Notes under the pieces: model-generated
The model's input: only the letters and a program-made list of their open reading frames with translations
Told to the model about the DNA's origin: nothing
Database searches by the model: none
Source: a virus
IMG/VR virus record: IMGVR_UViG_3300040943_000030
Span: 1-29,402 of that record
DNA length: 29,402 bases
Reading direction: 5' to 3' (one strand)
Position numbers and translations under genes: made by a program
Part shown: positions 1,294 through 23,087 of the stretch, piece after piece
Position numbering within the stretch: position 1 is the stretch's first letter
How the letters are laid out: each line of letters begins with the position of its first letter

Positions 1294-1294
1294 C

Positions 1295-5896: not shown

Positions 5897-7029
5897 TGCC
5901 TTATCCCCTCTTCAACGTGACCGGCCTCACCGCCCCGGACGAGAGCATCGGCGCATCTTCGGCGCAGGTTCCGTGCTCACCGGGCGACGTGTTCTTCCTC
6001 ACCGGGACGATCCAGTACCTCTCCGGCGGGATGCAGCCGCGTTTGTACATCAACTTCTACGACGCCTCGGGCAGCCAGATCACGATACTCCACGGCTCGC
6101 TCGCCATCTCCCAGCAGCTCGCGGTGCTGACCGACAACGGCTGGCACATACAGTTCCAGAGCGGCCCCGCGCCGCCCCTGGCCGCGACGGTGAACGTCGG
6201 CACCGACTGCCAGTACGTCGTGGGCCACACGGCGTCCGTCACCTCGTGGCAGGTTTCGGACTGCCGCGTCGCGCAGAACGGCAACCCCCTGTACCTGCCG
6301 CTGGTGAATTACGATTCGTCGCTGACTTCCTACTCGCTGGGCCAGCAGTTCGTGTTCCCGCTCTACTACCTGAGCCTGTTCACGTCGCAGTACAAGAACG
6401 CGCAGAACCTCTACGCCTGGGCGGCGGCGCTGATCCAGCCGGTGACGGACTTGCTGGCGTGCGTCCAGCAACTCTACCAGGCGTTCGCCCTGCCCCTGAC
6501 CACAAACGCGCCACGCGGCAGTCGAGCGCAGTACGCGTTCAGACCAGGAGGGGGCCAGACGCTGCCCGCTTCCGGCGCTCCCGTGGACCCCGTCGTCCCG
6601 GCTTCCGGGGCGCAACTCGACATCATCGGCACGATCGTAGGGGCGAGCAGGCGCCTGCCGTTCCAACCCGTCACCGGGAGTCCTCCGGTCCCGGTCAGCC
6701 CGATCCTGGACGACGCCGATTACCTGACCCTGATCCAGGCGAAGATCGCGCAGAACCAGTGGGACGGGCAGGTCGGCTCGCTCTACGTCCTCTGGGGTTA
6801 CTTGTTCCCCGGAGGGCACATAACCGTGCTCGACAACCAGAACATGACGGCGAACATCATCCTGTCGGGCACGTTCACGCCGATCGCCCTCCAGATGATC
6901 GAGAACGACATGATCATCCCCAGGCCTCAAGGGGTCGAGTACATTTACGGCTCGCCGCTGCTTCCCGTGTTCGGGGCGGACGTGGACAACTCGCTCATCG
7001 CCGGGGCGGACGTGGGCTATGCGACGTAA
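5896..7029 (+). CDS. Baseplate wedge protein with DUF2612 domain
   Basis: A 377-residue protein starting at ATG 5896 within the J-like stop. From about residue 135 it follows the DUF2612 layout: LTSYSLGQQFVFPLYYLSLFTSQ, a helical stretch with LIQPVTDLLACVQQLYQAF, then LDIIGTIVGASRRLPF (about 240-255), DADYLTLIQAKIAQNQWDG, YLFPGGHITVLDNQNMT and MIIPRPQGVEYIYG. Proteins of this type (gpI/gp7 role) follow J in many contractile baseplates and connect the wedge to the fibres. The first ~130 residues are an extra beta-rich domain that may bind carbohydrate or another baseplate part. It ends 15 bases before the fibre gene. Confidence 0.72.
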   Translation: MPYPLFNVTGLTAPDESIGASSAQVPCSPGDVFFLTGTIQYLSGGMQPRLYINFYDASGSQITILHGSLAISQQLAVLTDNGWHIQFQSGPAPPLAATVNVGTDCQYVVGHTASVTSWQVSDCRVAQNGNPLYLPLVNYDSSLTSYSLGQQFVFPLYYLSLFTSQYKNAQNLYAWAAALIQPVTDLLACVQQLYQAFALPLTTNAPRGSRAQYAFRPGGGQTLPASGAPVDPVVPASGAQLDIIGTIVGASRRLPFQPVTGSPPVPVSPILDDADYLTLIQAKIAQNQWDGQVGSLYVLWGYLFPGGHITVLDNQNMTANIILSGTFTPIALQMIENDMIIPRPQGVEYIYGSPLLPVFGADVDNSLIAGADVGYAT

Positions 7030-7044: not shown

Positions 7045-7578
7045 ATGGCCGGAAGCACTAATTTGATCCAAGTGAACCCGACGGCGGCGAACCAGCAGTC
7101 GGACGCCACCTACGACTCCTACTCGCTGGTCACGGGCGGCGTACCCTACGAGGGGATACTGCCCTCGGCCTACCTGAACAAGAAGGACTTCCAGCTCACG
7201 ACCTTCATGGCGGCGTTCGCCGGGATGCTCGTGGCAAAGGGGTACTCGCCGAATGACGGCTCCGCCAACCCGTCCACCGCCATCGCCAACCTTGTCGCGG
7301 TGCTGATGAACGTGCTCACGGCCGCCGACATGGCCCCCATCGTCGCCATCGGGAGCGCCGCCGGCTACATCGTCTTCCCCGCCGTTCTGGGAGGATTCAC
7401 CGTGCAGTGGGGCCTGGCGACGACGAACGTGACGACGTTCACGAGGGCGTTCACGGTGAAGCCGATCGTGGTCGTCAACTCGGGAACGGGCGTTGGCAAC
7501 CTGTCCGCGTGGGACACGACGAGCTTCACGGTGGACGCGACGAGCGGCAACACGACATGGATCGCGATGGGGAAATGA
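7045..7578 (+). CDS. Short tail fibre, gp53-like C-terminal domain
   Basis: A 177-residue protein with a strong ribosome binding site (GGAAGGAAC at about 7032). Its C-terminal ~65 residues follow the gp53-like tail-fibre tip: VLGGFTVQWGLATTNVTTFTRAFTVKPIVVVNSG, then SFTVDATSGNTTWIAMG. Family landmarks are the GGF-x-(V/I)QWG strand, the FTRAF turn and the W-IA-G ending. The N-terminal half has GVPYEGILPSAYLNKKDFQLTTFMAAF and probably attaches to the baseplate. It is the last gene of the cluster without a signal peptide. Its stop overlaps a run of ATGs opening the next gene. Confidence 0.75.
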   Translation: MAGSTNLIQVNPTAANQQSDATYDSYSLVTGGVPYEGILPSAYLNKKDFQLTTFMAAFAGMLVAKGYSPNDGSANPSTAIANLVAVLMNVLTAADMAPIVAIGSAAGYIVFPAVLGGFTVQWGLATTNVTTFTRAFTVKPIVVVNSGTGVGNLSAWDTTSFTVDATSGNTTWIAMGK

Positions 7579-10500
7579 TGATGAGACTCAAATGGTTCCT
7601 GGCGCTGCTCCTGCTGGCCCCGTTCGCTTGGAGCCAGAAGACGGGCACGGCCTTCACGTGGTACTGCCCCGACTCCTCCACATCGTCTACGGCTTACGTT
7701 TGCGTTACCACGCCGTCGTTCACGCCAGCCGCCGGGGACTCGGTATTGCTCACCGGGGTCAACCAGAACTCCGGGGCGAGTCCCACGCTCAGCGTGAACG
7801 GGGTCGCGCACCCTATATCCGTGAACCAGGGCAACGGGGGAGTGTCGCTCGGAGCGCTGCAGGCCGGGGCGAGCGTACTGATGACGAACACCGGATCAGC
7901 ATGGCAGATGCAGGGACAGTCCGGGGCCGGGGCCACCTTGGCTACCGCGGCCAGCCAGTGCGAGTTGTCAGTCGCCGCCGGGTCCACGGCGACCACCTTC
8001 GGCTCGTGCGCAGGTTCTAGCTCCACCAACTGGTCGGCGCTCGTCGCCAACTCCCCGATGGTCTCGGGGCCGTTCCAGGTGTCCACGGGCGGCTCCATCG
8101 TCCCGATCAACTCGGGCGTGATTCAGGCGACGGCGGCACCGTGGAGTGGCCTGACCGGGACGGCGCCGTCCACGACGGTGAACGGAACGGCGTGCCAGAT
8201 CGGCGGAAGTTGTTCGCCCAACACTCCGGTCGGGCAGGTCACCGGTACATTCACTTCCGGCAGCAACGGGTTTGGCACGGGCGCGTTTTCGTCCACCTAT
8301 ACGCTGCCAGCGGCCAGTGCTGGAGCGCTTGGTGGAGTCAACTCCATTACTTCCTCACTTCACAACTGGGTGAGTTACATCGACACGAGCGGCCTGCCCC
8401 ACCAATCGCGCCCGGCATGCGCTGACTTGAGTGATTCGTCCAGCGGATGCAGCACGGCGGCATACTCGCTGCCAGCCGCCACTTCCTCCACTTTGGGTGG
8501 GGTTAAGCCTGACGGTACGAGCATCCTCAACACGGCTGGGGCGATTTCGGCGACGGCGGCGTCGGTGGGCGCGGAACCGGCCCTGGGCAATCCAGAAACG
8601 ACGGGTTACGTGCTTTCGAGCACGACCGCTGGCGTGCGGTCATGGGTGGCGAACGGAAGCGGAGGCGCAGTCTTCTCGGTCTCGAACAGCGACAGCACGC
8701 TTACCGTAACTCCTACCACTGGCGCGGTGGTGGCCTCGCTGAATTTGGGCCACGCGAACACATGGACGGCGGCACAGACCTTTCCCGGCGCGACCTTCTC
8801 CGGCTCGGGCGCGGGCTACTTCGCGCTGACTCAAGGCGCGGATAACTGCGTAGCCAATCAGCCCACAGGCTCCGTTTGCTGGGAGGCTCCGGCCTCGGGC
8901 GTGACTTCTTACCACGGCCTGTTCGCGGTGACGCCTTCCTCGGGCATCCCGCACTACGCCTATTCCTCGCCCACGATCACGGAGACGATCTCGGCCATCA
9001 CTCCATCGGACGCGACGGGGAACACGACGGGCACCGGCAACTTCGTGCTCGCGACTTCCCCGACATTCGTCACCGGCTTGAGCAGCCCTGCTATCACCGA
9101 CAGCGGCATCTCGCAGTATGGCGTGCTCTTTGCGGGATCGGGAGGCTTGCTCTCTGGCATTCCTGCGGATTTCTACTACAACGACACCGGCTACGACAGC
9201 TTGCCAACGCTGCAACTTGGCGTGCGCGGCTCGCAGGCCATCGACGCCCATTTTGAGGTTTATGGCAGCAACGACACTTCGGCGCACTTCCACAACGTCG
9301 GCACGACCGGGACGGGACTCTCCGCTGACGGCGGAATCATCTCATTGTCCGCCGTTCCGACGGGAGCAGCGCTTGGTTCCGGCGTCATCATGGGCACGCT
9401 ACAGTTCGGCGGTTCCGATTCGACTTCGGACACGGAAGCTACCGGCGCGATCATCAGCGCGTGGACGACGCAGGCTTGGACCAGTTCGGCTTTCGGCTCG
9501 CAGTTGAAGTTCTACACGACTCCGAACAGCTCCACGACTCTGACGCAGGCATTACTCCTCGATCAGAATCAGGCGGCGACGTTTGCTGGCGCGGTAACAA
9601 TTTCTGGGCAACTCCTCGCCACAGAGCCAACTGGCTCGGTTTGGGGCAGCGCGACGGGCGGGGCGAAGGGCGCGGGCACGATCAATGCGGCTGGATTGTA
9701 TGTCAACGGCGCGGCGGTCGGCACGAGCAGCGGCACGGTCACTTCGTCCGGCTACTCCAGCGGCACGCCCTTGGCGGCGTTCTCCACTTCCACGAACATC
9801 ACGCCAGCAACTTCCTCCAATGTAATCGCACTGTTCGGCTCCGGCTCCTGCTCTGGTTATCTCAAGAGCGACGGAACCTGCTCCACGCCGGGCGGTTCTG
9901 GAACGGTAACGGTCGTCAGTTCCGGCTCGCTGACGAGCACGGCCTTGGTCACGGGCGGCGGCACGACCACACTGCAAACGCCCTCGACGACTTCCACGCT
10001 GGACGCGAGCGGAAACCTCGCGGTGGCGGCTGGCGGATCGCTGGGCAGCGCGGACAGCGGCAGCCCGAAGTTCACCTTCGCCTCGAACAAGGCCACGTTC
10101 AACCAGCCGCTGTACCTCGGCACGGCCAGCAACCAATTAGTAACCGGGACTGGCAGCAACCTGACAACCCTGACTTTCCCGGCCTCGTCCGGTGCGGTCA
10201 CGCTCACGTTCCCGATCACGAGCGAGTACATGGTCGGCGCGAACTCCGACACGACGACTACGCACGTCCTGCACGCCACGTCGGTTGCGGGAGTGTTCAA
10301 CTCGACGGCGATTGCGGCTGGCGATTTACCGGGCGGCGCAGGCGAGCTTCTGGCTGGCGCAACGCCCGCCTTGACCTATACGCCGACCTTGGGCGTGAGC
10401 GGCACTGCTGGTAGCTTGTCCATGTTCCCGGCGACCGGAAACTTCACGACGACGTGGGCGAGCGGAGCGACTGCGAGCAACACGATTCAGGGGTTCGCGG

Positions 10501-11546
10501 CTGTGCCGACAACCGGACACCTGATTGACTGCACGGTCACGAGCACGACCTGCTTGCTGCATGATAGTGGCGTGGTGACGGCTAACGTGGTCAATGCTTC
10601 CTCGCCTGGGGCTGGCATAGCCCACTTCGCCGGATCGACGCAGACGGTGACCAGCAGTGCGGTCGTGAACGGCGACATCACGAGCATGGCGGAATCGAAG
10701 CTGACGGGATCAGCGACGGCAACGACGATCACAGAGGTTGCAGCAGGAGATGTGGTCACGCGGGCCGGAGTTGAAACCGGGAACCTCACCGCGCCTTACG
10801 TGATCGAGAACACGAACTCGACGAACAACAACACGAGCATCGGCGCTTTGATCGGAGCGGCGGGCACTTCCACTGGCGGCATCGGGGAACTTGTGTTCGA
10901 CGTTTCGGGCACGGGCGACATCGTGCGCTGGTACTCGGGCGGGTCGGTGTCGGCGGGCGTGTACACGGTCGGGACTTTGGAAGGCCATTTGAGCGCGGCG
11001 GGAGCCCTGACTCTGGCGAGCACGGTGAGCGCGACTGGCGGTAATTTTAGCGGACTAACCGCTTCGTTGCCAGTTTGCACCGACGGCAGCAAGAACCTGT
11101 CGAGCACCTGCACGAACCTCATCACGGGCGCGATGATGGCGAACGCCACAGTCACGGCCACGCAGCTTGCCGCACAGTACAGCAAGGGATCGTGCACGGA
11201 GGTCTGGGGCGGCACGGGAACCTCGAACGTGCTGACGGCTGGCGACGACGCCATCTCGAACAACACCTGCTACAACGATTCTGGAGTGACGCGGACGATC
11301 ACGGCGGTGAAGTGCCGGAGCGACTACTCGTCCAACACCACGACCGTCAATCCGTCATTCGGCTCGGCTGGAACGGGCACGACGGTTTGCAGCGGCACGC
11401 TTCAGTGCGGGAACAGCTATGCCTACAGTTCCTCGTGCTCGGTGTCGAACGCGAGCTGGACGACCGGGACGGGCATTGATCCGGTGATGGGCACGCCCGA
11501 CACGCACAGCACAAGTCTCGCAGTCATTATCGAATATACCTATTAG
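7575..11546 (+). CDS. Large secreted tail-fibre-like protein
   Basis: A 1,323-residue protein. The start lies in a triple ATG (7575, 7578, 7581) overlapping the previous stop. The N-terminus is a clear Sec signal peptide: MMMRLKW, a leucine-rich core, then AFAWSQ with likely cleavage after WS. The rest is fibre-like: low-complexity Ser/Thr/Gly/Ala sequence with repeated turns such as YTLPAASAGALGGV and YSLPAATSSTLGGVKPDGTS, and several GYLKSDGTCSTPGGSGTVT-type elements of the kind seen in phage fibres. The C-terminal ~130 residues contain many cysteines (CTEVW, NNTCYND, VKCRSD, TVCSGTLQCG, SSCSV) and may form a disulfide-stabilised tip. A signal peptide on a fibre is unexpected, because virion proteins normally assemble in the cytoplasm. 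Confidence 0.72.
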   Translation: MMMRLKWFLALLLLAPFAWSQKTGTAFTWYCPDSSTSSTAYVCVTTPSFTPAAGDSVLLTGVNQNSGASPTLSVNGVAHPISVNQGNGGVSLGALQAGASVLMTNTGSAWQMQGQSGAGATLATAASQCELSVAAGSTATTFGSCAGSSSTNWSALVANSPMVSGPFQVSTGGSIVPINSGVIQATAAPWSGLTGTAPSTTVNGTACQIGGSCSPNTPVGQVTGTFTSGSNGFGTGAFSSTYTLPAASAGALGGVNSITSSLHNWVSYIDTSGLPHQSRPACADLSDSSSGCSTAAYSLPAATSSTLGGVKPDGTSILNTAGAISATAASVGAEPALGNPETTGYVLSSTTAGVRSWVANGSGGAVFSVSNSDSTLTVTPTTGAVVASLNLGHANTWTAAQTFPGATFSGSGAGYFALTQGADNCVANQPTGSVCWEAPASGVTSYHGLFAVTPSSGIPHYAYSSPTITETISAITPSDATGNTTGTGNFVLATSPTFVTGLSSPAITDSGISQYGVLFAGSGGLLSGIPADFYYNDTGYDSLPTLQLGVRGSQAIDAHFEVYGSNDTSAHFHNVGTTGTGLSADGGIISLSAVPTGAALGSGVIMGTLQFGGSDSTSDTEATGAIISAWTTQAWTSSAFGSQLKFYTTPNSSTTLTQALLLDQNQAATFAGAVTISGQLLATEPTGSVWGSATGGAKGAGTINAAGLYVNGAAVGTSSGTVTSSGYSSGTPLAAFSTSTNITPATSSNVIALFGSGSCSGYLKSDGTCSTPGGSGTVTVVSSGSLTSTALVTGGGTTTLQTPSTTSTLDASGNLAVAAGGSLGSADSGSPKFTFASNKATFNQPLYLGTASNQLVTGTGSNLTTLTFPASSGAVTLTFPITSEYMVGANSDTTTTHVLHATSVAGVFNSTAIAAGDLPGGAGELLAGATPALTYTPTLGVSGTAGSLSMFPATGNFTTTWASGATASNTIQGFAAVPTTGHLIDCTVTSTTCLLHDSGVVTANVVNASSPGAGIAHFAGSTQTVTSSAVVNGDITSMAESKLTGSATATTITEVAAGDVVTRAGVETGNLTAPYVIENTNSTNNNTSIGALIGAAGTSTGGIGELVFDVSGTGDIVRWYSGGSVSAGVYTVGTLEGHLSAAGALTLASTVSATGGNFSGLTASLPVCTDGSKNLSSTCTNLITGAMMANATVTATQLAAQYSKGSCTEVWGGTGTSNVLTAGDDAISNNTCYNDSGVTRTITAVKCRSDYSSNTTTVNPSFGSAGTGTTVCSGTLQCGNSYAYSSSCSVSNASWTTGTGIDPVMGTPDTHSTSLAVIIEYTY

Positions 11547-11548
11547 CC

Positions 11549-12496
11549 ATGCGACGAATCTTACTCATCCTCGCCTTGCTTCTGCTCGCTGGTTCTGCGG
11601 CCAGCGCCCAGACTCTCATCGGGAACTGCGACGACTATACGAATTCGCCGCCGTCCTGCACGGTCACTTGGTCGGGCACGGCTACGCTGATCGAGGCATC
11701 GTGCAGCATTATCGGCAACGCGCCCACAGATACCTTAAGCCTGGGCTGGCACGCCATCGAGGCCAATGCCGATGCGGACTACCTTTGGACATACTACGCC
11801 TATGGCTCGTTCTCCGGCGGAACCGATACAGTTTCATGCGCAAGCGGCGGCGCCTTCCTCACCGTGCAGGTCTTCAGCGGGACGCCAACTGGATTCAATC
11901 CGGCGGATGGCAGCAATAATAACAATGGCAACGGCCAAGACCCCGGCAGCCTGTTGCCTTCGCAGTCCGGAGACTTGTTCATCTCGACCTATGGAGGGTT
12001 CGACGGCAGCGGAGATTGCAGTTCGGTAAGCACGGGCACCATAGCGAACGACGACTATAACCCTTCCACCGCTTCGCAGGCAGACGCCTACTACCACAAC
12101 ACAGGCAGCGGGGCCATCGACATGGTGTGGACCTGCGCCGATGGCGACGATGCGGAGTCGAACGTCGCCGCCTTCAAGACCAGTGGGAGCGTGACCAAGG
12201 CCGCCACGCCGACTTGCACGCCGAGCAGCGGGACGGTGCCGCAGACCGTGAGCTGTTCCAGTTCGTCGGCCACGTTCGTAACATGTTATGCGGTCAGCCC
12301 AACGAATCCGGTGACGAATGGATTTGGATTGGCCTGTACTACAGGCTCGTTTGCTGAGAGTTTCACCGTTTCCGTGGCCGAAACAATCAACGTGGTCGCC
12401 GGAACTTCCTACACGGCAGACAGCAACGTGGCTTCCTATACCTATACAGGCGGCGGCAGCGTGAAGCGCCACCGCGCCTCGGTCGTGCAGAAATGA
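11549..12496 (+). CDS. Secreted protein with chitobiase C-terminal-like domain
   Basis: A 315-residue protein with a Sec signal peptide (MRRILLILALLLLAGSAASAQ, cleavage likely after ASA). Residues about 25-205 are a cysteine-containing beta-sandwich with an Asn-rich loop, similar in style to the N-terminal module of the wedge fusion at 3024. Residues about 215-305 resemble the chitobiase/beta-hexosaminidase C-terminal-type Ig fold: ATPTCTPSSGTVPQTVSCSSSSA, later ESFTVSVAETINVVAGTSYT and NVASYTYT. This fold is a non-catalytic adhesion module in many secreted proteins. The C-terminus is basic (VKRHRASVVQK). It overlaps the next gene by four bases (ATGA). Confidence 0.65.
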   Translation: MRRILLILALLLLAGSAASAQTLIGNCDDYTNSPPSCTVTWSGTATLIEASCSIIGNAPTDTLSLGWHAIEANADADYLWTYYAYGSFSGGTDTVSCASGGAFLTVQVFSGTPTGFNPADGSNNNNGNGQDPGSLLPSQSGDLFISTYGGFDGSGDCSSVSTGTIANDDYNPSTASQADAYYHNTGSGAIDMVWTCADGDDAESNVAAFKTSGSVTKAATPTCTPSSGTVPQTVSCSSSSATFVTCYAVSPTNPVTNGFGLACTTGSFAESFTVSVAETINVVAGTSYTADSNVASYTYTGGGSVKRHRASVVQK

Positions 12497-14781
12497 GGAT
12501 AACCCTTCTGATCTTGCTGGCCGCGAGCGTCATGGCGCAGACCCCGCGCCGACTCGTGACCTCTGCTGTGGACGAAACCAAACTGGCAACGCTTGCTGGC
12601 AACACGAGGCCCGAGGCGACCGTCCCGGCAAACGACAAGGGCAAGGTGGCCGATAGCTTCGCCATGAACCACATGGTCATGGTGCTGGCCCGCGCTCCTG
12701 AACAATCGCAAGCACTGGCCGCCGACGTGGAGACGCGCTACGATCGAAAGCATCCGAACTACCGCAAATGGCTCACGGCGGCTCAGTTCAACGCGCAGTG
12801 GCCGACGCATCCTGACGACCGGAAAGCCATCACGACATGGCTGAAGTCGCACGGCTTCACGGTCAACGGCGCGAGCAATCTGACGATAGATTTCTCGGGT
12901 ACGGCGGGACAGGTCACAGGCGCCTTCCACACCGAGATTCACAACCTGACCGTGAACCGCAGGAAGCCGAATGGCAACATGGGCCTCGGCCCAATGACCA
13001 GCGAAAACCACAGGGGCAATGTCAGCAACCCCCAAGTCCCGGCTGCCTTGGCTCCCGCAATTGTCGGCATCATGGGGCTGAGCAACTTCAACCCCGAGCC
13101 GCAGATAATTCTTACTAATGGCGCCGGGACACTGCAAAACGTCATGCCGTTCGATTTGGAGACGATTTACGGTTTCCTCCCACTCTTCAGTTCCGGGATC
13201 AGCGGGCAGGGGCAGACGATCACGCTGGTCGAAGATTCAGATTTGCAAGAACCTTCGGGTGGCCCGTGGAATGGCGACTGGCTAAATTTCCGTTCGGTTA
13301 GCGGACTCAGCACTTACACCAGCACCCTAACGCTGACCCACCCGCAGGTCAGCGGGCAGCCTACATGCAGCGATCCCGGCGTCACGCCTGACGTTCTTGA
13401 GGCCGCCGTGGATGTTGAGTGGGCGAGCGCAGCAGCCCCGAGCGCCAATCTCGTGCTCGCGTCCTGCTTTGCCGGGGACAGCGGATTTGGGGACGGCATC
13501 ATCATCGCGATTCAGAACTTGGTCAACCTGCCTTCCCCGCCGACGATCATGAGCGTCAGTTACGCACTGTGCGAACCCGCGAACGGGCCTGCCGCGAACT
13601 TGGCTTATTATGACGCGTTACAACAGGCGGCGTCGGAGGGTATTTCAGTTTTCGTGGCCGCGGGGGACTGGGGGGCGAGCATTTGCAGCTTTGGCAGCGA
13701 CGGCCTCTCTGCCGTGTTCGGCTTCAGCGTGAACGCGATTGGCTCGACACCCTACGCCACGTCGGTGGGCGGGACGGACTTCGGGGACACTTACGCCGGA
13801 ACGATAAATTCCTATTGGAACGCGACCAATAACTCGGTGTATGGCACCGCAGGCGGCACTTACGTGCCGGAGATTCCGTGGGACGATTCCTGCACCAGCC
13901 CGCTCATAGCCTCGTATCTCGGCATTCCAATCTACGGCTCGACTAGCGTATGCAACACGATCAAGGATGGCAACTTTCCTGTCACGGGTTATGGAGGCGC
14001 GATTTACACAGCGGGAAACTCCCAGTCCATTCTCGCGGGCAGCGGAGGACCGAGCAGTTGCGCTACCGGGCAGGCTGTTCCCGTTGGCGGCACAGTCGTG
14101 AACGGCACTTGCGCCGGATGGCCGAAACCTTCATGGCAATCCGTTCTCGGCAATCCCTCAGATGGCGTGCGCGACCAGCCAGACGTGGCGATGTTCTCCG
14201 GGGGAGGCACTTGGACGCATTTTTATATGTATTGCAACTCGGATTCCGAAGGTTGCTATGGAACTGGCGGCACACTCAACCCTCCTACGCTCTGGGGCGG
14301 CGTTTTGGGGACCAGTTTGGGTACGCCCATCTGGGCCGGGATTCAGGCTTTGATAAACCAGAAGATCGGCACAACGCAGTCGGGGCTTGCGAATCCTATT
14401 TTGTACCAATTAGCACGGGCGGAATACGGATCAGGTGGAAACAGTCAGTGCAACGCAAGCCTTGGAAGTTCAATAGGCAGTTCGTGTGTCTTTCACGACA
14501 TCACCGCAGGCGATAACGCGACAAGTTGTGGTGATCCGGGAGCTGCCTCGACTTACGTCAATTGCTACGATCCCGACGATTCCACATATCAATACTTCGG
14601 CGTGTTGAGCACGAGTGACAGCGCCTACCAACCAGCCTACCCCGCCACTTCCGGCTGGGACTTCGCCACCGGCCTCGGGAGCGTCAACGTCTACAACCTG
14701 GTCGAGGCTTGGGCGGGACTGTCGAGTCCGAACAAAGTGATAGGTGGGAGTGCGGTTTTCGGGGGGGCGGGGGTGCAATGA
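12493..14781 (+). CDS. Secreted sedolisin-family (S53) serine-carboxyl peptidase with pro-domain
   Basis: A 762-residue protein. It has a short signal peptide (MRITLLILLAASVMAQ) and a pro-kumamolisin activation domain at about 50-195 (HPNYRKWLTAAQFN, VTGAFHTEIHNL). The catalytic domain of the kumamolisin/sedolisin type follows at about 215-755. The expected triad is present: Glu303 and Asp307 in LEAAVDVEW, and Ser608 in GTSLGTPIWAG. The oxyanion Asp is at 392 in AAGDWGAS. C-terminal calcium-site residues appear as CVFHDITAGDN and SGWDFATGLGS. Length and domain order are complete. Known enzymes of the family are self-processing and active at low pH. It probably cleaves proteins outside the cytoplasm; the target is unknown. 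Finding it in a phage tail region is unusual. Confidence 0.9.
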   Translation: MRITLLILLAASVMAQTPRRLVTSAVDETKLATLAGNTRPEATVPANDKGKVADSFAMNHMVMVLARAPEQSQALAADVETRYDRKHPNYRKWLTAAQFNAQWPTHPDDRKAITTWLKSHGFTVNGASNLTIDFSGTAGQVTGAFHTEIHNLTVNRRKPNGNMGLGPMTSENHRGNVSNPQVPAALAPAIVGIMGLSNFNPEPQIILTNGAGTLQNVMPFDLETIYGFLPLFSSGISGQGQTITLVEDSDLQEPSGGPWNGDWLNFRSVSGLSTYTSTLTLTHPQVSGQPTCSDPGVTPDVLEAAVDVEWASAAAPSANLVLASCFAGDSGFGDGIIIAIQNLVNLPSPPTIMSVSYALCEPANGPAANLAYYDALQQAASEGISVFVAAGDWGASICSFGSDGLSAVFGFSVNAIGSTPYATSVGGTDFGDTYAGTINSYWNATNNSVYGTAGGTYVPEIPWDDSCTSPLIASYLGIPIYGSTSVCNTIKDGNFPVTGYGGAIYTAGNSQSILAGSGGPSSCATGQAVPVGGTVVNGTCAGWPKPSWQSVLGNPSDGVRDQPDVAMFSGGGTWTHFYMYCNSDSEGCYGTGGTLNPPTLWGGVLGTSLGTPIWAGIQALINQKIGTTQSGLANPILYQLARAEYGSGGNSQCNASLGSSIGSSCVFHDITAGDNATSCGDPGAASTYVNCYDPDDSTYQYFGVLSTSDSAYQPAYPATSGWDFATGLGSVNVYNLVEAWAGLSSPNKVIGGSAVFGGAGVQ

Positions 14782-15674
14782 AACGACTGCTTCAAATCGC
14801 TTTGCTGACGGCGCTCGCCGGGAGCGCGTTCTCCCAATCGTTCATGAACATCACGGCCGCGAACATATACGGCGCTGGAGGAGTCCTGCTGCCATCGGGG
14901 ATACTCGTCTGGCAGGCCACGGACAGCGGCGGGAACCCCGTGAGCTACCAGGTGAACGGCGGAGGGCAGCAGATCACGTACCCGACCGTGTGCCCGATAG
15001 TGAACGGGGCGATCACGGGCGGCTGCCAGGTGGCGAACACGAGCACGACGAATCCCATGAACATTTGTTTTGCTTTGACCATAAAGGATTCGAACAACGT
15101 CGTGATCTCTCCCGCCGCGAACGGCAACGCGTGCGTGCAGCCGCAGACCTCGAACTACTGGTGCGCGAACGGCGCTTGTAACTTCGACCAGTACGTGCCG
15201 ACGAACCCTTCCGTGATCACGGCCAAGCTCGCCACGCCGCAACTCTACTCGCTCGGAGGCATCTACCAATCTAACTGCCCAGCGCTGACCCCGGTGGTTA
15301 CTGGATGGCTGAGCACGGGATACCCGAACTGCGCGCCCTTTCCTGCTCCGCCACCCCCCGCTCCTACGTTCTTTCTGCTCGGGCAGACGGGGACCGCAGC
15401 CACGGCATGTGACAACCACGTGGCCTCGGGCGTCGGACAGTTGCAGCAGTACGGCTCCTCCCCTGAAGCGGCATATCAGGTCACGTTCTCGAACGGAGCT
15501 GCCTACTGCGACGCGAACTACGCCGTGGAGGTGACGCGCAAGAGCGCCGCCGCCGGGTTCGGCAACGGCTTCCTGAACGTGGTCAATCAGACGGCATTCG
15601 GGTTCCTTATCGTGTCGAGCGACACGACGGAAGTCACGAGCACGATCTTCTGGACGGCGGCGGGCTACCAATGA
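14778..15674 (+). CDS. Secreted cysteine-containing protein of unknown function
   Basis: A 298-residue protein starting at ATG 14778 inside the protease stop. A signal peptide is clear (MKRLLQIALLTALAGSAFSQ). Residues 20-145 form a beta-rich region resembling a carboxypeptidase-like or fibre beta-sandwich (NIYGAGGVLLPSGILVWQATDSGGNPVSY). Paired cysteines (CPIVNGAITGGC, WCANGACNF) suggest disulfides. A Pro-rich linker (PFPAPPPPAPTFF) leads to a C-terminal beta domain (residues about 215-298) ending in FWTAAGYQ. I do not recognise the family. Its context suggests a role with the other exported proteins. It overlaps the next gene by ATGA. Confidence 0.6.
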   Translation: MKRLLQIALLTALAGSAFSQSFMNITAANIYGAGGVLLPSGILVWQATDSGGNPVSYQVNGGGQQITYPTVCPIVNGAITGGCQVANTSTTNPMNICFALTIKDSNNVVISPAANGNACVQPQTSNYWCANGACNFDQYVPTNPSVITAKLATPQLYSLGGIYQSNCPALTPVVTGWLSTGYPNCAPFPAPPPPAPTFFLLGQTGTAATACDNHVASGVGQLQQYGSSPEAAYQVTFSNGAAYCDANYAVEVTRKSAAAGFGNGFLNVVNQTAFGFLIVSSDTTEVTSTIFWTAAGYQ

Positions 15675-16564
15675 AAATTACCTGCAAACTTGCAGTCTTC
15701 CTCTGGCTCGCTTGCGCGGCGGCGTTCCCGCAAGCCACGCTCACCACGCCGACACCCGGAACCCAACTCAGCGGGAGCACGGTGACGTTCGACTGGACTT
15801 GCTCCTCCTGCGGGGCGACGGCCTACTGGCTCGACCTCGGGACGACGGCTGGCGGGAACAATTACTACCAATCCGGCAATCTGGGAAACGTTCTGACTAT
15901 CACCGTGCAGAGCCTCCCATTGAACGGCACAACAGTCTATGCCACCCTGTACTCTCTGGTGAGCGGCGTATGGCAGCACGGCGTCTACACGTATTCGTCG
16001 CTGAACGGAACGGCCGGGGCCGCCGTCATGCAGACTCCGACGAACAACTCGACTCTGGACACAAACCACATAACGTTCACATGGGCGGCAGGAACGAGCG
16101 CAACTGCCTACTGGATCGACATAGGGACCACCGTGGGCGGGAACAATTACATCCAGTCCGGCAATCTGGGGAACGTTCTCACGAGCACTCAGGCGACCGG
16201 GTTCCCGGCCAACGGTTCGACTATGTATGTCACGCTCTATTCTCTGATCGGTGGCCAGTGGTTCAACAACAGATACAGCTACGTGCTCGCTCCGCACTAC
16301 ACGCTCCCCGCGTGGACCGCCCCTACGGGAAGTGATCCTGCCGCTAGTTACAATATCTATCGTGGCTATCCTTCGACCGGAAGTTGCACAGGAAGCAGCA
16401 CGCCGGTCAGCATGACGAAGATCGGATCGGTCACGGCTCCGACTGTGACCTATACGGATCAGGTAGTAGCCCTGTTCTACAACTACGACTACTACGTAAC
16501 GGCAGTGGACTCTGCGGGAAAAGAAGGTCCGCCGTCGAACGTGATCTGCGTGGTGATCCAATGA
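15671..16564 (+). CDS. Secreted protein with two tandem repeat domains and an FN3-like domain
   Basis: A 297-residue protein with a signal peptide (MKITCKLAVFLWLACAAAFPQ). Two copies of a ~95-residue unit follow. The first (about 22-112) contains TAYWLDLGTTAGGNNYYQSG and the second (about 118-205) TAYWIDIGTTVGGNNYIQSG, each followed by NLGNVLT and ATLYSL or VTLYSL. The copies also resemble each other in DNA, for instance around 15864-15898 and 16147-16181. The last ~85 residues look like an FN3 domain (SYNIYRG, YDYYVTAVDSAGKEGPPSN). This type of repeat is common in secreted proteins. A dispersed 14-bp palindrome lies inside the signal peptide coding region (15682-15695). The next gene starts inside the stop. 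Confidence 0.65.
   Translation: MKITCKLAVFLWLACAAAFPQATLTTPTPGTQLSGSTVTFDWTCSSCGATAYWLDLGTTAGGNNYYQSGNLGNVLTITVQSLPLNGTTVYATLYSLVSGVWQHGVYTYSSLNGTAGAAVMQTPTNNSTLDTNHITFTWAAGTSATAYWIDIGTTVGGNNYIQSGNLGNVLTSTQATGFPANGSTMYVTLYSLIGGQWFNNRYSYVLAPHYTLPAWTAPTGSDPAASYNIYRGYPSTGSCTGSSTPVSMTKIGSVTAPTVTYTDQVVALFYNYDYYVTAVDSAGKEGPPSNVICVVIQ
15682..15695 (+). repeat. Dispersed 14-bp palindrome, copy 3
   Basis: CTGCAAACTTGCAG lies in the signal-peptide coding region of the gene starting at 15671. Six outer bases on each side pair; only the central AC dinucleotide breaks symmetry. It is the same sequence, read on the other strand, as the copy at 27596-27609. Confidence 0.7.
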
Positions 16565-18228
16565 GATGCGTACTTATCCTGTTTCTGAGCGCGGCCTGTT
16601 TTGCCGCTGGCGGCTCCTGTCCCAATGGAACGAACTATCCGAATGCTTCGGGCGCGTTGGTCACCCTTGCCTCGCTTGGCGTGACCTCTTGCTATTACGC
16701 TTCGTCGCTCTCCGGGGCGTCGGACAGCAATTCCGGCACTAGTGAATCAAGCCCGTGGCTGCACATTCCGGGGATGCCAACCTGCACGGCCACTTGCGGC
16801 ACGGTGCAATCAGCAGGCGTTCCCGCTGGAACCGGGATCATCATCGAGGGCGGATCGACTTACCACTTCGGCAACTCGTCCGCGACTCCATACGCAGGCG
16901 GTGGCGGCATCAACTTCACTTGGAGCGGCACGAGCAGTCATTACACGTACATCGGCGTCGATCTCGGATGGCCGAGCACGGGATGGACGCGGCCCGTTTT
17001 CACGGGCGACAACTCGCCGAGCACGAGCGTGGTCGGCAGTTGCGCCTACCAAGTCACGAACGGCAACGACATGGTTGCCTTCAGCGGCACGGTTTATAAC
17101 ATCCTTGACGATTTCGAGTTCACTGGGTTCTGCTGGAACACCACGCAATCATCGAACGAAGGTGGCGCGATCATGCTCACCTTCAACTCCAGCGGCAGCC
17201 CGAACGGGCACATTGTTTCGAGAAACTACGTTCACGGATGGACCCATACTTCGGCTGGCACGCAAGGTGGCGGCGGGATCGCATTTTACAGCTATAATCA
17301 GGAGCCCGGAATCACCTATGAATACAACGTCATCGACGGTTCGGATTCCGACCCGTACTCGCTGATTTCGATGAAAGGCGACGTTTATCAGTTCAATTAC
17401 AACGTCGTTCGCTACAACCAAGGAGAAAATTCATCTTCTGGCTGCTATCGGGTTCACGACAATCTCTGGGAGTATATGAACAACGTGACGGATGGCTCGT
17501 CGCACTCGGACGTGCTCCAGTGCTACGGGGAAACGTCCCACGGCTCGTCAGATCCGAATCTTTTCTACAACAACATCTTCCGTTACATCGGGACGCTCGG
17601 GAGCCAGGCGCTTTCCGCGAACACGCTGTGGCTCGCCCCGCCTACCGGACAGACAGACTACGTCTTCAACAACGTCATCCATGACCTGTACGCGAACTCG
17701 AACTACTTCAACATCAGCCAAGCATCGCCTCCCATCGGCGGCGGGAATGTGGCTTTTTATAACAACACTTTCGTGAATCCTCCGTTCAATTCAGCATGGC
17801 CCTGCCCCGCTCCGGCTCCCGGATCGGTTAGCTCCCAGAACAATCACTGGATCACGACCTACACTTCCACGATGGACGGATGCTCATTCAGTAGCGAAAC
17901 TACTGATCTGTTTATGACGCCCACTCTTGCCGCTACGCAGGGCTACACGTCAGCGAACGACTACGCGCCCACGGCATCCAGTAATTCCACGGTCGGGGCC
18001 GGGACGAACAATGCGACATTCTGCAACGGACTGAACGATTCCGTATCCAAGGCGGCCTGCCTTCAGGGGTTCACTGGCGTGGCGTACAACGCCACCAATC
18101 ACACTGTAGTCGTTCCAGCCATTCTCGGAGTTAATCGTCCTTCCACTGGCGCGTGGAACGTGGGCGCGTACCAGTTTGCGGCTACGGGGCCGAACGCCCC
18201 GACTGGCTTGACCGTGACGGTGCATTAA
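16561..18228 (+). CDS. Secreted right-handed beta-helix protein
   Basis: A 555-residue protein starting at ATG 16561 in the previous stop. A short signal peptide (MRCVLILFLSAACFAAGG) is followed by a layout typical of pectate-lyase-like beta-helices: SCYYASSLSGASDSNSGTSESSPWLHIPGM, then GTGIIIEGGSTYHFG, and repeated short strands ending in N or G such as GHIVSRNYVHGWTH, ITYEYNVIDGSDSD, NVVRYNQGEN, NLFYNNIFRYIG, YVFNNVIHDLY and VAFYNNTFVNP. No catalytic residues can be assigned by eye. Such proteins bind or cleave polysaccharides, as in phage tailspikes or secreted lyases. The C-terminus ends in NAPTGLTVTVH, which resembles the first strand of an FN3 domain. Confidence 0.72.
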   Translation: MRCVLILFLSAACFAAGGSCPNGTNYPNASGALVTLASLGVTSCYYASSLSGASDSNSGTSESSPWLHIPGMPTCTATCGTVQSAGVPAGTGIIIEGGSTYHFGNSSATPYAGGGGINFTWSGTSSHYTYIGVDLGWPSTGWTRPVFTGDNSPSTSVVGSCAYQVTNGNDMVAFSGTVYNILDDFEFTGFCWNTTQSSNEGGAIMLTFNSSGSPNGHIVSRNYVHGWTHTSAGTQGGGGIAFYSYNQEPGITYEYNVIDGSDSDPYSLISMKGDVYQFNYNVVRYNQGENSSSGCYRVHDNLWEYMNNVTDGSSHSDVLQCYGETSHGSSDPNLFYNNIFRYIGTLGSQALSANTLWLAPPTGQTDYVFNNVIHDLYANSNYFNISQASPPIGGGNVAFYNNTFVNPPFNSAWPCPAPAPGSVSSQNNHWITTYTSTMDGCSFSSETTDLFMTPTLAATQGYTSANDYAPTASSNSTVGAGTNNATFCNGLNDSVSKAACLQGFTGVAYNATNHTVVVPAILGVNRPSTGAWNVGAYQFAATGPNAPTGLTVTVH

Positions 18229-18230
18229 GT

Positions 18231-20723
18231 GTGCGCAGCCTCCTCAAATTCGCCTGCGTCCTGCTCACGACTTGCTGTTTCGCGCAAGGGCCGCAGACCT
18301 ACGCGGCGAGGACGGACAATTGCGAGGTCGGGACGGAATCCGGGTGCGTCGCGGGAGTCGGAGTGGGCCACGCGGGAGCGCCCATTAGCTTCCTCCTGAC
18401 GGGAACAGGACCGTTCGCGGCGAACGCGCCAGCGAACACCGCCACTACGGATAAAGACTTCGGCTCGTTCCTGCTGCTTGTGACCGATCAAAGTACACAT
18501 CTGACGACCAACAGCTTCCAACTCGGCTCGGATGGAGAACGCGATCTGTTTGAGCAGAACTCGAACATGCTCATGGTCTACTCAGTCGGAGGCGGCCCTT
18601 ATCTCTATTACCTAAACAAGACGGCGATCCGGGCTGCTGAAGCGGGCGGAACACCGATCTCGCCCTCGAATCCCGGCGTGACCAAGAGCCAGATCGTCGG
18701 CGGCTCGATCAGCGGAAGTCCGTGCACTTCTGGCTGCACCGTGCTCAACTCGGGGGGCGCGGAGGTATTCAGCCGAGGACAGGCGTACACCATCTTCGAG
18801 CTTTGGTCGGACGGTCTGACCATTTACAAGGACGTGATCAACCCGAGCACAGACACGTTCACGCGAACGCTTTACGCGAACCTTGGCAACGCTTTCCCCA
18901 AAACCTACTTTAGTACATGGAACGGGGAGTTTACGACAGCGACAGACGGCTCAGTAGCCCTTGCGATGGCGGGCGGGATGGATTGGAAGGGGAGCACGGC
19001 CTACGTTACCGGAGACTACACTTCGTTCATCTATCCGCAAACGGGGAATTCCGCCAATCATGCCTTCCAGGCGACCGTCGGCGGAACGACTTCCGGCACG
19101 GAGCCGACGTGGTCGACCTGCACTTCGACCTGCACGGATGGAGGGGTGACGTGGACAAACATTGGCTCAGTCAACGGGCAAGGGCCGGGATTCGACGCTG
19201 TAGTGTATTTAGCGGGAACCGGATATTACGCTTTGAATACTCGGCTCGGGCAGGTGCGATCTGGCACGACCGTCGCGGGCACTTGGACAACTACCGACAC
19301 GGTGATCTGCGGCAAGTACGGGACCAACCCATGCCCCTTGACCGACCTGATGACGCTGCACGGGAATGGAGCAGACCTTAATTCGGCCTACATGTCGCTG
19401 ACGCCGACGCATGGCGGCGGGACGCCCGTGCTCACGCCGGGGACGGCTAATTGCCTGAACACGAACGCGACGTACTACGGGGCATACAGCGCGGGCAAGA
19501 CCTATTCCAAGACGAGTCCCGCGCACCAGACGGTTTACGATCCCTCGCACGGCGCGCCGTACAGCTACTACGAGTACGTCTACGCCACCCCGACGGCGGG
19601 GAACGCTCCCCCGAACTCGACCTACTGGCAGTTGGCCGACGTCTACTGCTACACCTACACTTGGCAAGTAGCCACGCTGAACATCAACGTCAGCACGCAG
19701 ACGAGCGGGGCCAGCCACACCTCCGGCCACCAGGCGCAGGGCTACTTGAACTACTGGGCGGACAATGACCAGTACCAGCATCTTTTCTCGCAGCCGATGG
19801 TTTATCAGAGCGTGAGCGGGACGATTGACGAAGTGCCCTATCCGACCATTGGCGGTAGCGGTTCAACCGGATGGTTGAGCCGGGACATCCTGCCAAATGG
19901 CTTCCCTTCAGATCACCATGACTCCTACCGCGATTCCGGGCTGACGGATACGCCTCCGATAGTAGACTTCGCCACGCAGGTTCCGACGATCTCCAACGGC
20001 GCACTCACTGGACTGGCGTACTACGGTGAAGTGGTGGGAGAGTGCACGGGCCTCGGGACTTGCCCGCTGGGAACGACCTATAGGTTCTCGCACATCTATA
20101 ACACCGGGATGAACCAGAGCTTCGAGGCGCAGAACAACATCGGGAACGCCTCGCAGGACGGCCAGTGGGCATTGGTCGGCACGGACATGATGGGGACGCG
20201 CGGCTCGACCTCGCCCGCGTGGGCCGGGAGCGCGGCTTACGCGCTCGGGGCCACGATGTACCCGACCTCGAACAACGCGGGGAAATACGACTTCCAGGTC
20301 ATCGCCGCTGGCACCACTTCCGGCACGCAGCCTGATTGGGACGCCGCCTGCGCCACCTCCTGCGTGGACGGCGGGGTTACATGGAAGAACCTGAAGGCAT
20401 CATGCGACCAACTGCGTGCCGGGTTTTCACCGTCCGCCAGCACGGCGTTCTCCGGTGGATCGGCCGTCTACCCCGTGTCGAACAACCCGAACAACGACGT
20501 CTACCTCACGGCGGCCGGAGGGACGACGGGCGCGACGGTTCCCAACTGGCAAGTATTTTGTCCGTCATACGGAAATTGCCCTTCGCTCGACGGGACGGTG
20601 CAATGGACGAACGAGGGTCCGAACGATTGCAGAAGTGACGCGATGCTGATCGACCTCATGTCGGCCGCGCCGCTGACGGGCGGCCCGCTCGCCCCAACCG
20701 GATTGTCTGTGACTGTGCACTAG
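18231..20723 (+). CDS. Large secreted protein with three carbohydrate-binding-like repeats
   Basis: An 830-residue protein. I chose GTG 18231, two bases after the upstream stop, because it starts directly with a signal peptide (MRSLLKFACVLLTTCCFAQ). The body has beta-propeller-like segments (FDAVVYLAGTGYYALNTRLGQV, GTYRFSHIYNT style). Three ~62-residue units occur near residues 250-312, 662-725 and 730-800. They share YxxG..xYPxxxN, an aromatic, G-TTSGTxPxW and D-G-V-T-W. These look like small carbohydrate-binding modules often seen in phage fibres and chitin-binding proteins. The protein ends in APTGLSVTVH, matching the previous protein's tail. The role is probably binding a surface or exopolysaccharide (inference). 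Confidence 0.62.
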   Translation: MRSLLKFACVLLTTCCFAQGPQTYAARTDNCEVGTESGCVAGVGVGHAGAPISFLLTGTGPFAANAPANTATTDKDFGSFLLLVTDQSTHLTTNSFQLGSDGERDLFEQNSNMLMVYSVGGGPYLYYLNKTAIRAAEAGGTPISPSNPGVTKSQIVGGSISGSPCTSGCTVLNSGGAEVFSRGQAYTIFELWSDGLTIYKDVINPSTDTFTRTLYANLGNAFPKTYFSTWNGEFTTATDGSVALAMAGGMDWKGSTAYVTGDYTSFIYPQTGNSANHAFQATVGGTTSGTEPTWSTCTSTCTDGGVTWTNIGSVNGQGPGFDAVVYLAGTGYYALNTRLGQVRSGTTVAGTWTTTDTVICGKYGTNPCPLTDLMTLHGNGADLNSAYMSLTPTHGGGTPVLTPGTANCLNTNATYYGAYSAGKTYSKTSPAHQTVYDPSHGAPYSYYEYVYATPTAGNAPPNSTYWQLADVYCYTYTWQVATLNINVSTQTSGASHTSGHQAQGYLNYWADNDQYQHLFSQPMVYQSVSGTIDEVPYPTIGGSGSTGWLSRDILPNGFPSDHHDSYRDSGLTDTPPIVDFATQVPTISNGALTGLAYYGEVVGECTGLGTCPLGTTYRFSHIYNTGMNQSFEAQNNIGNASQDGQWALVGTDMMGTRGSTSPAWAGSAAYALGATMYPTSNNAGKYDFQVIAAGTTSGTQPDWDAACATSCVDGGVTWKNLKASCDQLRAGFSPSASTAFSGGSAVYPVSNNPNNDVYLTAAGGTTGATVPNWQVFCPSYGNCPSLDGTVQWTNEGPNDCRSDAMLIDLMSAAPLTGGPLAPTGLSVTVH

Positions 20724-20730
20724 GAGAATC

Positions 20731-21390
20731 ATGAAAATCATCATCACCGCAGTTCTCTCGCTCGCCCTGGTCGGCTGTATGACTCCGACTGCCCAGCGCG
20801 CCAACACTCCTGCCCCGCCCTCCATCGAGCCGCGCCCGCTCACCGCCACTGCGACGGCGCACTCCGTTACCCTCGGGGGATGCACGGATACGGCGGCGGG
20901 CGTGCAGTTTAATTTCTACAAGGGAACGGCCTCCGGCGGGGAGAGCGCGACGGCACTGAATGCTTCGCCGCTCGCGACCTGCTCCTACACCGATACGGCG
21001 GTGACGGCTCTGCAGACCTACTGGTATGTCGCCAAAGCCTATCTGTCGACCGCCAGCCCGAGCCTTTCAGGGCCGTCAAACGAGGTGAGCGCCACGATCC
21101 CAGCCGACGCGCAGCCCCCGGCGCCCACCGGCCTGACGGTCGAGACTGTCACGGAGAACCGCGTGCCGTTGAAGTGGACGCCTGTAAATTTGCAGGGAAT
21201 CAGCTACGATGTGTTCCGGGGAGTGGAACCGAAACTGCCCGACCCGAAACAGCTGGCGAGCGGGCTCACAGCGGCGTCCTATGTCGACACGAAGCCGGTC
21301 AAGGGGCAGACCCGGTACTATGGCGTCAAGTCGGCGCTTGGAACTAAAGTCAGCGCCATGAGCGCGACCCTGGCGGTAACCGTACCATAG
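20731..21390 (+). CDS. FN3-domain lipoprotein
   Basis: A 219-residue protein with its own ribosome binding site (AGGAGA at about 20723). The N-terminus is a lipoprotein signal: MKIIITAVLSLALVGC with lipobox LVGC, so Cys16 would be lipidated. A Pro-rich linker follows, then two FN3-like domains, one about 35-125 (TATAHSVTLGGC..., YWYVAKAYLS, GPSNEVSATIP) and one about 130-219 (PPAPTGLTVETVTENRVPLKW, YDVFRG, YYGVKSALG). It would sit in a membrane facing the periplasm or outside. It is the last gene of the signal-peptide block. A copy of the dispersed palindrome is inside the gene (21182-21195). Confidence 0.75.
   Translation: MKIIITAVLSLALVGCMTPTAQRANTPAPPSIEPRPLTATATAHSVTLGGCTDTAAGVQFNFYKGTASGGESATALNASPLATCSYTDTAVTALQTYWYVAKAYLSTASPSLSGPSNEVSATIPADAQPPAPTGLTVETVTENRVPLKWTPVNLQGISYDVFRGVEPKLPDPKQLASGLTAASYVDTKPVKGQTRYYGVKSALGTKVSAMSATLAVTVP
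21182..21195 (+). repeat. Dispersed 14-bp palindrome, copy 4
   Basis: CTGTAAATTTGCAG differs from the perfect copy at 4637 by one base. It is within the second FN3 domain of the lipoprotein gene, where the bases also encode VNLQ. Confidence 0.6.
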
Positions 21391-21399
21391 GAGGAAACG

Positions 21400-21753
21400 A
21401 TGGACTCTAGCCTGGTATTCACACACCTAGCCTTTGGAGCGATCTGGGGCGCGGTGCTACACTACGCGCAGATGAGCAAGTCGCTGCCGTGGGTGACACA
21501 GAAGACGACGGCGATCAATATCAGCTTTCGCGCTCTCATGGCGCTGCTCACCGGCCTCGGCATCCACGGCGCCTACGTCGGCAACGCCTCGACCGGATGG
21601 CAGATCGCGATAGCCATCCCGTCGCTGGCCGTGCTCGGGCACTCGCTCGTGCAGGTCATCGGTCAGTACTTCGTTCAGCAGGGCTGGCTCACGGCCTTCC
21701 AGCTTCAGCAGTTCATAAAGGACTTGCCACCGGCTTCATCGAACAAGCAATAA
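21400..21753 (+). CDS. Small membrane protein, holin candidate
   Basis: A 117-residue protein behind a strong ribosome binding site (AGGAGG at about 21390). Three hydrophobic segments are visible, near residues 5-23 (FTHLAFGAIWGAVLHYA), 41-61 (ISFRALMALLTGLGIHGAYVG) and 67-92 (WQIAIAIPSLAVLGHSLVQVIG), followed by a polar tail ending in SSNKQ. Size and topology fit a phage holin and it precedes two more small membrane proteins. There is no diagnostic motif, so the assignment rests on topology and position. Confidence 0.5.
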   Translation: MDSSLVFTHLAFGAIWGAVLHYAQMSKSLPWVTQKTTAINISFRALMALLTGLGIHGAYVGNASTGWQIAIAIPSLAVLGHSLVQVIGQYFVQQGWLTAFQLQQFIKDLPPASSNKQ

Positions 21754-21762
21754 GGAGGCTCC

Positions 21763-21996
21763 ATGCTGGCTTTACTGCAAATCGGTCTGCACAGGTACGG
21801 GTTCTTCGGGATCGAGGGATTGGCGGGGATCATCGTGGGGGTGATCATCCTGATCATCCTCTGCGCGATCCTGTTCAAGATTTGGGGGCTGCTCGCGCCG
21901 AAACTCGGACTCGACCCCACGTGGGTTCAGATCATCTTCTGGCTGCTCGTCCTGCTCGTGTTCGTTTTGTTCCTGCACGTGTTCGGGTTGTACTGA
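21763..21996 (+). CDS. Small two-helix membrane protein, holin-like
   Basis: A 77-residue, very hydrophobic protein with a strong ribosome binding site (AAGGAGG at about 21752). Two membrane helices are visible: residues about 16-43 (GIEGLAGIIVGVIILIILCAIL...) and about 53-76 (WVQIIFWLLVLLVFVLFLHVF). The short linker contains KLGLDPT. It could be a second holin, an antiholin or a general small membrane protein. No family is recognised. Confidence 0.5.
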   Translation: MLALLQIGLHRYGFFGIEGLAGIIVGVIILIILCAILFKIWGLLAPKLGLDPTWVQIIFWLLVLLVFVLFLHVFGLY

Positions 21997-21999
21997 ACG

Positions 22000-22470
22000 A
22001 TGTTCCATTTCGGCATCCCGATGTTCGCCATGACCAACGAGGACAGACCTGTGCCCGAAGAAAGCGCGAGCCACACCGAGCGCCATTCCAGTGTAGACAC
22101 CGTCGGGCCGCAGCCACCGACCAACGGGATCGACCTTCACTGGCGCTGGCAGTCCGTGGCCGTGGTTTGCACCATCTGCACACTGGTGGGCGGGTTGATC
22201 GCCTTCAGCTTCGGGCAGTTCAGTTCCGTCGTGCAGGACAGGCAGGCGTTCTCCGACCGCATGACCGACAGCGAGAAGGACCGACGGGAGATGCACGACG
22301 AGATCAACAAGCTGAACGACAAGATCGCGGCCATGCGCGATGAGCAGGTCAAGAACTCGGAGTTCCGCACGAACTCGAAGCAGGATCTTCAGGATATAAA
22401 GGACATGCTGCGGGCGCACATGCAGGGGCGCGACTACGTCGTGAAGCACCACGCGGAGGAGCAGCCGTGA
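22000..22470 (+). CDS. Single-span membrane protein with coiled coil, i-spanin-like topology
   Basis: A 156-residue protein if translation starts at ATG 22000; in-frame ATGs at 22021 and 22030 are alternatives and none has a good ribosome binding site. A polar N-terminus is followed by one membrane helix (about 51-71, SVAVVCTICTLVGGLIAFSF) and a long charged helix (about 80-140, TDSEKDRREMHDEINKLNDK...) that should form a coiled coil. This layout is that of an inner-membrane spanin, but many phage membrane proteins share it and no lipoprotein partner gene with typical features is adjacent. It overlaps the next gene by four bases (GTGA). Confidence 0.45.
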   Translation: MFHFGIPMFAMTNEDRPVPEESASHTERHSSVDTVGPQPPTNGIDLHWRWQSVAVVCTICTLVGGLIAFSFGQFSSVVQDRQAFSDRMTDSEKDRREMHDEINKLNDKIAAMRDEQVKNSEFRTNSKQDLQDIKDMLRAHMQGRDYVVKHHAEEQP

Positions 22471-23071: not shown

Positions 23072-23087
23072 AAAGGAGAACTCAAAA

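Follow-up and report, generated by a model that had tools for sequence, protein, structure and literature searches.

Eight consecutive signal-peptide genes at the tail-fibre locus of a contractile-tailed phage: a putative exported receptor-binding cassette

The window analysed here is the entire 29,402-base IMG/VR virus record IMGVR_UViG_3300040943_000030, a fragment of the genome of a contractile-tailed phage whose baseplate genes, at 194-7029, were recognised by Pfam and PHROGs matches. Our subject is a block of eight consecutive plus-strand genes at 7575-21390, each opening with a Sec or lipoprotein signal, and flanked by a gp53-like short fibre gene and by holin-like genes. The block occupies the usual fibre locus, directly after baseplate J, gpI and the short fibre and before the lysis genes. 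Its members are:

7575-11546, + strand: tail-fibre-like, signal-bearing protein of ~1322 residues with 22 mature cysteines; Sec signal MMRLKWFLALLLLAPFAWS, cut before Q
11549-12496, + strand: signal-bearing protein of 315 residues with 10 cysteines; Sec signal, chitobiase-C-like tail by eye, no family match
12493-14781, + strand: signal, pro-kumamolisin prodomain (PF09286, E = 4.8e-21) and S53 serine-carboxyl protease; 14 cysteines
14778-15674, + strand: signal and cysteine-rich domain (8 invariant cysteines) that in related phages makes up the N-terminal part of long fibres
15671-16564, + strand: Sec signal, two repeats (by eye) of a ~90-residue domain, FN3-like C-terminus; even cysteine count
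16561-18228, + strand: signal and beta-helix-like protein (by eye), diversifying as judged by divergence from the copy in a sibling phage
18231-20723, + strand: signal and 830-residue protein with two phage head-decoration-like domains (phrog_20658, E = 1.3e-10) and 18 cysteines; GTG start
20731-21390, + strand: lipoprotein (lipobox LVGC) with a weakly FN3-like C-terminal half (fn3 E = 0.07, below the cut-off)

The first open reading frame can start at 7575 or 7578, and the junctions, in order and in bases, are -4 (with the start at 7575), +2, -4, -4, -4, -4, +2 and +7; they agree with the original prediction, made from the sequence alone, that most of these genes overlap by four bases or follow within two, the last gap being wider. 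Inside the block, a scan limited to sigma-70-type promoters found no promoter-like site on the plus strand, and terminator-like matches were below the shuffle mean. By rule, all eight reading frames have the predicted Sec or lipoprotein N-termini, with a basic n-region, a hydrophobic core and either A or S followed by Q or an AxA site. The paired cysteines that had been noted for most members extend to all eight mature proteins, whose counts are 22, 10, 14, 10, 4, 12, 18 and 2, every one even, where the lipidated cysteine of 20731-21390 is left out.

To recognise signals elsewhere we used a rule demanding a basic n-region, an uncharged hydrophobic core and an AxA site or lipobox; tested on annotated proteins of Granulicella plasmids, it recovered 10 of 17 expected to be exported, with 1 false positive in 14, and is thus conservative. 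An IMG/VR search with the DUF2612 protein returned 49 loci, and 27 non-redundant loci had the gp53-like anchor, one of them being the window. In these 27 the rule matched 1 of 185 genes upstream of the anchor versus 34 of 43 downstream (at least 150 residues), and several of the downstream genes that it missed look like lysis or small genes. As the rule so rarely matches upstream genes, the pattern in the window is not due to chance. In Bacillota-type loci from the DUF2612 search the downstream genes had no signals, gene calling being poor for these AT-rich loci, and the fibres of the related Proteobacteria phages Burkholderia Magia, Proteus ZX7 and Bordetella IFTN9 had none by the same rule.

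Two families of N-terminal domains follow the signals. One, INPxxQINWP, is carried by 18 genes in the first set of loci, and a second scan added further loci; the other is the cysteine-rich ITAANI...CNFDQY domain of 14778-15674, which shows 64-32% identity with the N-terminal parts of signal-bearing proteins from loci L062, L063/L064, L003, L036/L037, L066 and L067. The last two are unrelated phages, in which the domain lies directly after a long tape-measure-like gene. In the related phage G012 (L101, ~72.5 kb), apparent signals are borne by five long genes; two are at the fibre position, and the other three, nearer the head genes, form a second signal-bearing, cysteine-rich run at 20052-25772 of the record.

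Cultured phages carry a comparable arrangement. The Acidobacteriota podophages Tunturi_1 and Tunturi_2 have signals on gp12, gp13, gp14 (annotated as tail spike or pectin lyase), gp16 and gp17, and the mature Tunturi_1 proteins hold 20, 10, 20, 1 and 32 cysteines, respectively; gp17 ranks with the most divergent structural proteins of the pair and has an indel. As in the window, consecutive signal-bearing, cysteine-rich fibre or spike genes (gp12-gp17) with overlapping ends follow a tail protein; unlike the window phage, these are podoviruses with different proteins and no S53 protease. The term 'signal peptide' is absent from the main text of the paper describing them (PMC11924767). The comparison covered Tunturi_1 to Tunturi_4, and in the stretches of Tunturi_3 and Tunturi_4 examined, from hosts of the same genus, the block is absent. 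The block that the original prediction proposed to look for in other phage contigs thus recurs both across the gp53-anchored IMG/VR loci and in Tunturi_1 and Tunturi_2.

Evidence for export that does not depend on the N-termini comes from the cysteines: bacterial extra-cytoplasmic proteins favour even counts, which cytoplasmic proteins do not (PMC7678975). The mature signal-bearing proteins contain 1.91 cysteines per 100 residues, against 0.59 for structural proteins without signals from the same loci (Mann-Whitney p = 1.2e-14). Among signal-bearing proteins of at least 250 residues, 34 have an even and 2 an odd count (p = 1e-8), although many of them share N-terminal domains and are not fully independent; in the control, size-matched structural proteins without signals, 42 counts are even versus 46 odd. 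The 34:2 figure depends on cutting at the first A, G, S or C followed by Q, a rule adopted after a simpler one had placed some cleavage sites wrongly; the simpler rule, applied to proteins of all sizes, gives 29:13 (p = 0.02). The signal peptides, the even cysteine counts, the recurrence of the block in other phages and its occurrence in cultured phages of Acidobacteriota all agree, and give good support to the view that the phage exports a co-directional set of its proteins.

What these proteins resemble was sought in their homologues. Members of the window block have no direct match to the PHROGs tail-fibre families; their tip and N-terminal domain are held in common with signal-bearing fibres. 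Such fibres do match: the signal-bearing protein of L037 hits PHROG tail fibres at E = 8e-31 (phrog_454), 2e-30 and 4e-27, and that of L024 hits the tail-fibre family phrog_7032 at E = 1e-9. The C-terminal 147 residues of 7575-11546 are 73% identical to the C-terminus of the signal-bearing fibre at 9528-15692 of L062, on shafts that differ, and the N-terminus of the L062 fibre matches the separate window protein 14778-15674. A shared tip on differing shafts is typical of the modular exchange known from receptor-binding proteins. The next gene, 11549-12496, has a KRxRAxVxQ C-terminus in common with 15695-16477 of L062.

A sibling contig, 97.7-98.6% identical in nucleotides over the aligned parts, allows recent change to be followed. 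Most compared genes are 97.6-100% identical, among them 15671-16564 (97.6%, no family match), and the signal of 18231-20723 is retained; however, the beta-helix-like protein of 16561-18228 is only 58% identical to the sibling copy, with its mature cysteines changing by pairs from 12 to 16. The S53 slot is filled in the sibling by an unrelated gene with an apparent signal peptide (1-741 of L098), which ends like the protease, in KV(I/L)GGSxxFGGxGV; as a docking tag this C-terminal motif was examined and is not general. The adjacent genes 16561-18228 and 18231-20723 both end in APTGLxVTVH, which resembles the beginning of an FN3 domain. Lipoproteins are encoded at a place similar to 20731-21390 in L008, L012 and L087. 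The original prediction had framed the block as a separate exported secretome; its export stands, and the framing gives way, because several members are homologous to tail fibres and show tip swapping. For the same reason the block looks, in its sequence, like the receptor-binding locus of the phage itself, carrying export signals.

The protease at 12493-14781 belongs to the S53 (kumamolisin/sedolisin) family, as judged by a profile match to kumamolisin 1t1e (3e-43) and by the presence of the prodomain and of the catalytic Glu/Asp/Asp/Ser; E303, D307, D392 and S608 are conserved with Granulicella S53. Its nearest relatives among plasmid records are Granulicella plasmid proteases (34% identity over 96%). 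Taking this similarity together with the Tunturi parallel, the host of the window phage is likely, on this indirect evidence, to be an Acidobacteriota bacterium; a scan of genome contigs for prophages returned Bacillota sequences only. The S53 protease as a general member of such cassettes is not supported: the prodomain is absent from 22 related records, and the sole other S53 found in IMG/VR adjoins a response-regulator-like gene and is apparently host flank.

Taking all this into consideration, we favour, with about as much belief as doubt, the explanation that the block is a Sec-exported, disulfide-bonded receptor-binding (tail-fibre/tailspike) cassette whose products meet virions and most likely dock on them. 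It draws on features that the sequence bears out: the signals, a layout like that of an operon, recurrence in other phages, paired cysteines, homology to fibres and swapped tips. The block would be made late, as one transcript, and its products would be taken across the inner membrane through the Sec pathway of the host, with removal of the signal peptide. Folding would take place in the periplasm with all cysteines paired, oxidation being presumably performed by the host Dsb system, and the proteins would accumulate there until holin, endolysin and spanin open the cell. Released at lysis, the mature disulfide-stabilised fibres, spikes and S53 protease would encounter the released virions, which they most likely join. 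Docking would then occur outside the cytoplasm, most likely on short non-exported adaptors, namely the gp53-like protein and, in relatives, a protein of ~130 residues. That this is a lineage-spanning route of tailed-phage assembly, by which receptor-binding proteins are exported by Sec, oxidised in the periplasm and attached to the virion only at or after lysis, is a broader claim that we advance tentatively and with rather more doubt than belief.

The ~130-residue protein (MASETTTPNIGLQxPAFNQANWQVPTNYNWNLLDLI) has no signal and is conserved just before the exported fibre in many loci (L019, L005, L024 and others); it is possibly a docking adaptor. It is missing in the window, where the gp53-like gene directly precedes the block.

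The N-terminal hydrophobic stretches might instead be helices by which fibres assembled in the cytoplasm are anchored to the virion, all of them being short and found on structural-looking genes. We consider this very improbable. At the cleavage site, position -1 is A in 37 of 49 proteins and position +1 is Q in 37 of 49 (the latter partly built into the cut rule), and one member has a lipobox; the strong bias to even cysteine counts is best explained by an oxidising compartment; and a pro-kumamolisin protease is among the members. Furthermore, conservation is lower in the signal regions than in the mature domains next to them (27% versus 44% and 42% versus 58%), which fits signals and not docking helices. 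Virion-anchoring N-termini, which the original prediction had named as a finding that would overturn it, are thus disfavoured. Another alternative, a lysogenic-conversion (moron) cassette of secreted proteins expressed by the lysogen to the benefit of its host, like lambda Lom or Bor, could appeal to the site between fibre and lysis genes, common for morons, and to the likeness, among plasmid records, of the S53 protease to those of Granulicella plasmids. It is nevertheless unlikely: the block forms a compact part of the late gene run, its genes overlapping by 4 bases and no promoter-like site lying within it, integrase matches occur in only 2 of 22 related records (many of them fragments), and Tunturi_1 and Tunturi_2 carry the block with no predicted integrase or recombinase (PMC11924767). 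The same two observations on integrases disfavour, as a general role, the secretion by lysogens that had been suggested.

A stronger contender is that the proteins are exported and disulfide-bonded but never enter virions, being displayed on or secreted around the infected cell as decoys that mask receptors against superinfection or progeny re-adsorption, or as matrix-loosening enzymes and lectins, with fibre modules borrowed for their binding specificity. It fits the same signal and cysteine data, accommodates the mixed cargo of a protease with prodomain and a lipoprotein, and leaves the short signal-less gp53-like fibres to act as virion fibres. We regard it as a serious possibility, though probably not the right one, since the block sits at the usual fibre locus, the swapped tips and the fast divergence seen between near-identical phages are in keeping with receptor binding, and neither the window nor the ~72.5-kb G012 showed a further long fibre gene. 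Virion incorporation is ranked above a purely secreted role because of this lack of another long fibre gene and because divergence is concentrated in the block genes. Several points nonetheless weigh against incorporation. The fibres of tailed phages are otherwise understood as assembled in the cytoplasm; a protease with a pro-domain and a lipoprotein are odd as virion parts; no single docking domain is common to all eight proteins; AlphaFold models of the fibre tip and of the cysteine-rich domain were unusable (mean pLDDT, the predicted local distance difference test score, of 31.5 and 40.6); and virion proteomics for any of these phages was not found, so that incorporation is what we infer.

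Ordinary tailed-phage fibres and tailspikes share with the block its place in the genome, repeats of fibre type, exchange of C-terminal tips, beta-helix members and rapid diversification, but the block differs in its Sec and lipoprotein signals, its high cysteine density with even counts and its division into several separate proteins. The coat proteins pIII and pVIII of filamentous phages are virion proteins with cleavable signal peptides; these phages, however, are extruded through the membrane without lysis, whereas the window belongs to a lytic tailed phage. Lambda Lom has a signal peptide and is destined for the outer membrane (PMC12309495); like the block, it and similar morons provide a phage-encoded signal-peptide protein beside fibre genes, but Lom is a single small barrel and the block consists mostly of large fibre-like proteins in a late cassette. 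Sec-exported and signal-arrest-release (SAR) endolysins, such as Lys44 of fOg44, are cases of a tailed phage using host Sec (PMC6116005) for a lytic-cycle protein, but they are muralytic enzymes and not receptor-binding proteins. In the literature searched, with partial coverage, we found no description of exported tail fibres or of signal peptides on tail-fibre cassettes. The finding is therefore a variant of the phage receptor-binding locus new to that literature, and a new assembly route if virion incorporation holds. Exported fibres would change the view of how virions are completed in a large group of soil phages, and disulfide-locked fibres could suit acidic soil; should the proteins stay off the virion, they would form an exported arsenal during lysis, also new at such a scale. 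Tunturi_1 and its host Tunturiibacter provide a cultured system for testing either case.

The genes around the block, in which the baseplate rows come from Pfam/PHROGs matches, are:

194-946, + strand: Dit-like, without signal peptide
949-1293, + strand: Pam3 gp18-like plug, without signal peptide
1295-2347, + strand: hub, without signal peptide
2344-3024, + strand: spike, without signal peptide
3024-4466, + strand: gp25-type wedge with a long N-terminal extension, without signal peptide
4661-5896, + strand: baseplate J, without signal peptide
5896-7029, + strand: DUF2612 gpI-like, without signal peptide
7045-7578, + strand: gp53-like short tail fibre or adaptor, without signal peptide (phrog_1396 tail fiber protein, E = 2.8e-5)
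21400-22470, + strand: membrane/holin-like and spanin-like genes closing the block (hydrophobic segments by eye, no firm family match)
23088-23606, + strand: signal-peptide gene outside the block, beyond the holin-like genes (Sec signal, C-terminus ...TFRF)

The N-terminal motif of the gp53-like protein is kept across related loci. Host-flank or other non-phage DNA was rejected as the source of the block, the window being a virus record in which baseplate genes lie on one flank and RusA, HNH and repressor-like genes on the opposite one, and the near-identical sibling contig also speaks against the junction with a non-phage genome that had been considered. A defence island was rejected as well, PADLOC giving no match.

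In the wedge protein, the gp25-type match spans residues 362-469 only and is preceded by an Ig-like (by eye) extension of ~360 residues; its likely counterparts in L062 and L063 are standalone proteins of 124 and 142 residues. The product of 23088-23606, 100% identical in the sibling phage, is possibly a small Lom-like outer-membrane barrel, to judge by its sequence; signal-bearing genes of like size lie at a similar place in relatives (19116-19700 of L008 and 15879-16457 of L012). Finally, 27231-27581, on the minus (early) strand, encodes a 116-residue signal-peptide protein of which the sibling contig (G002) has a copy.

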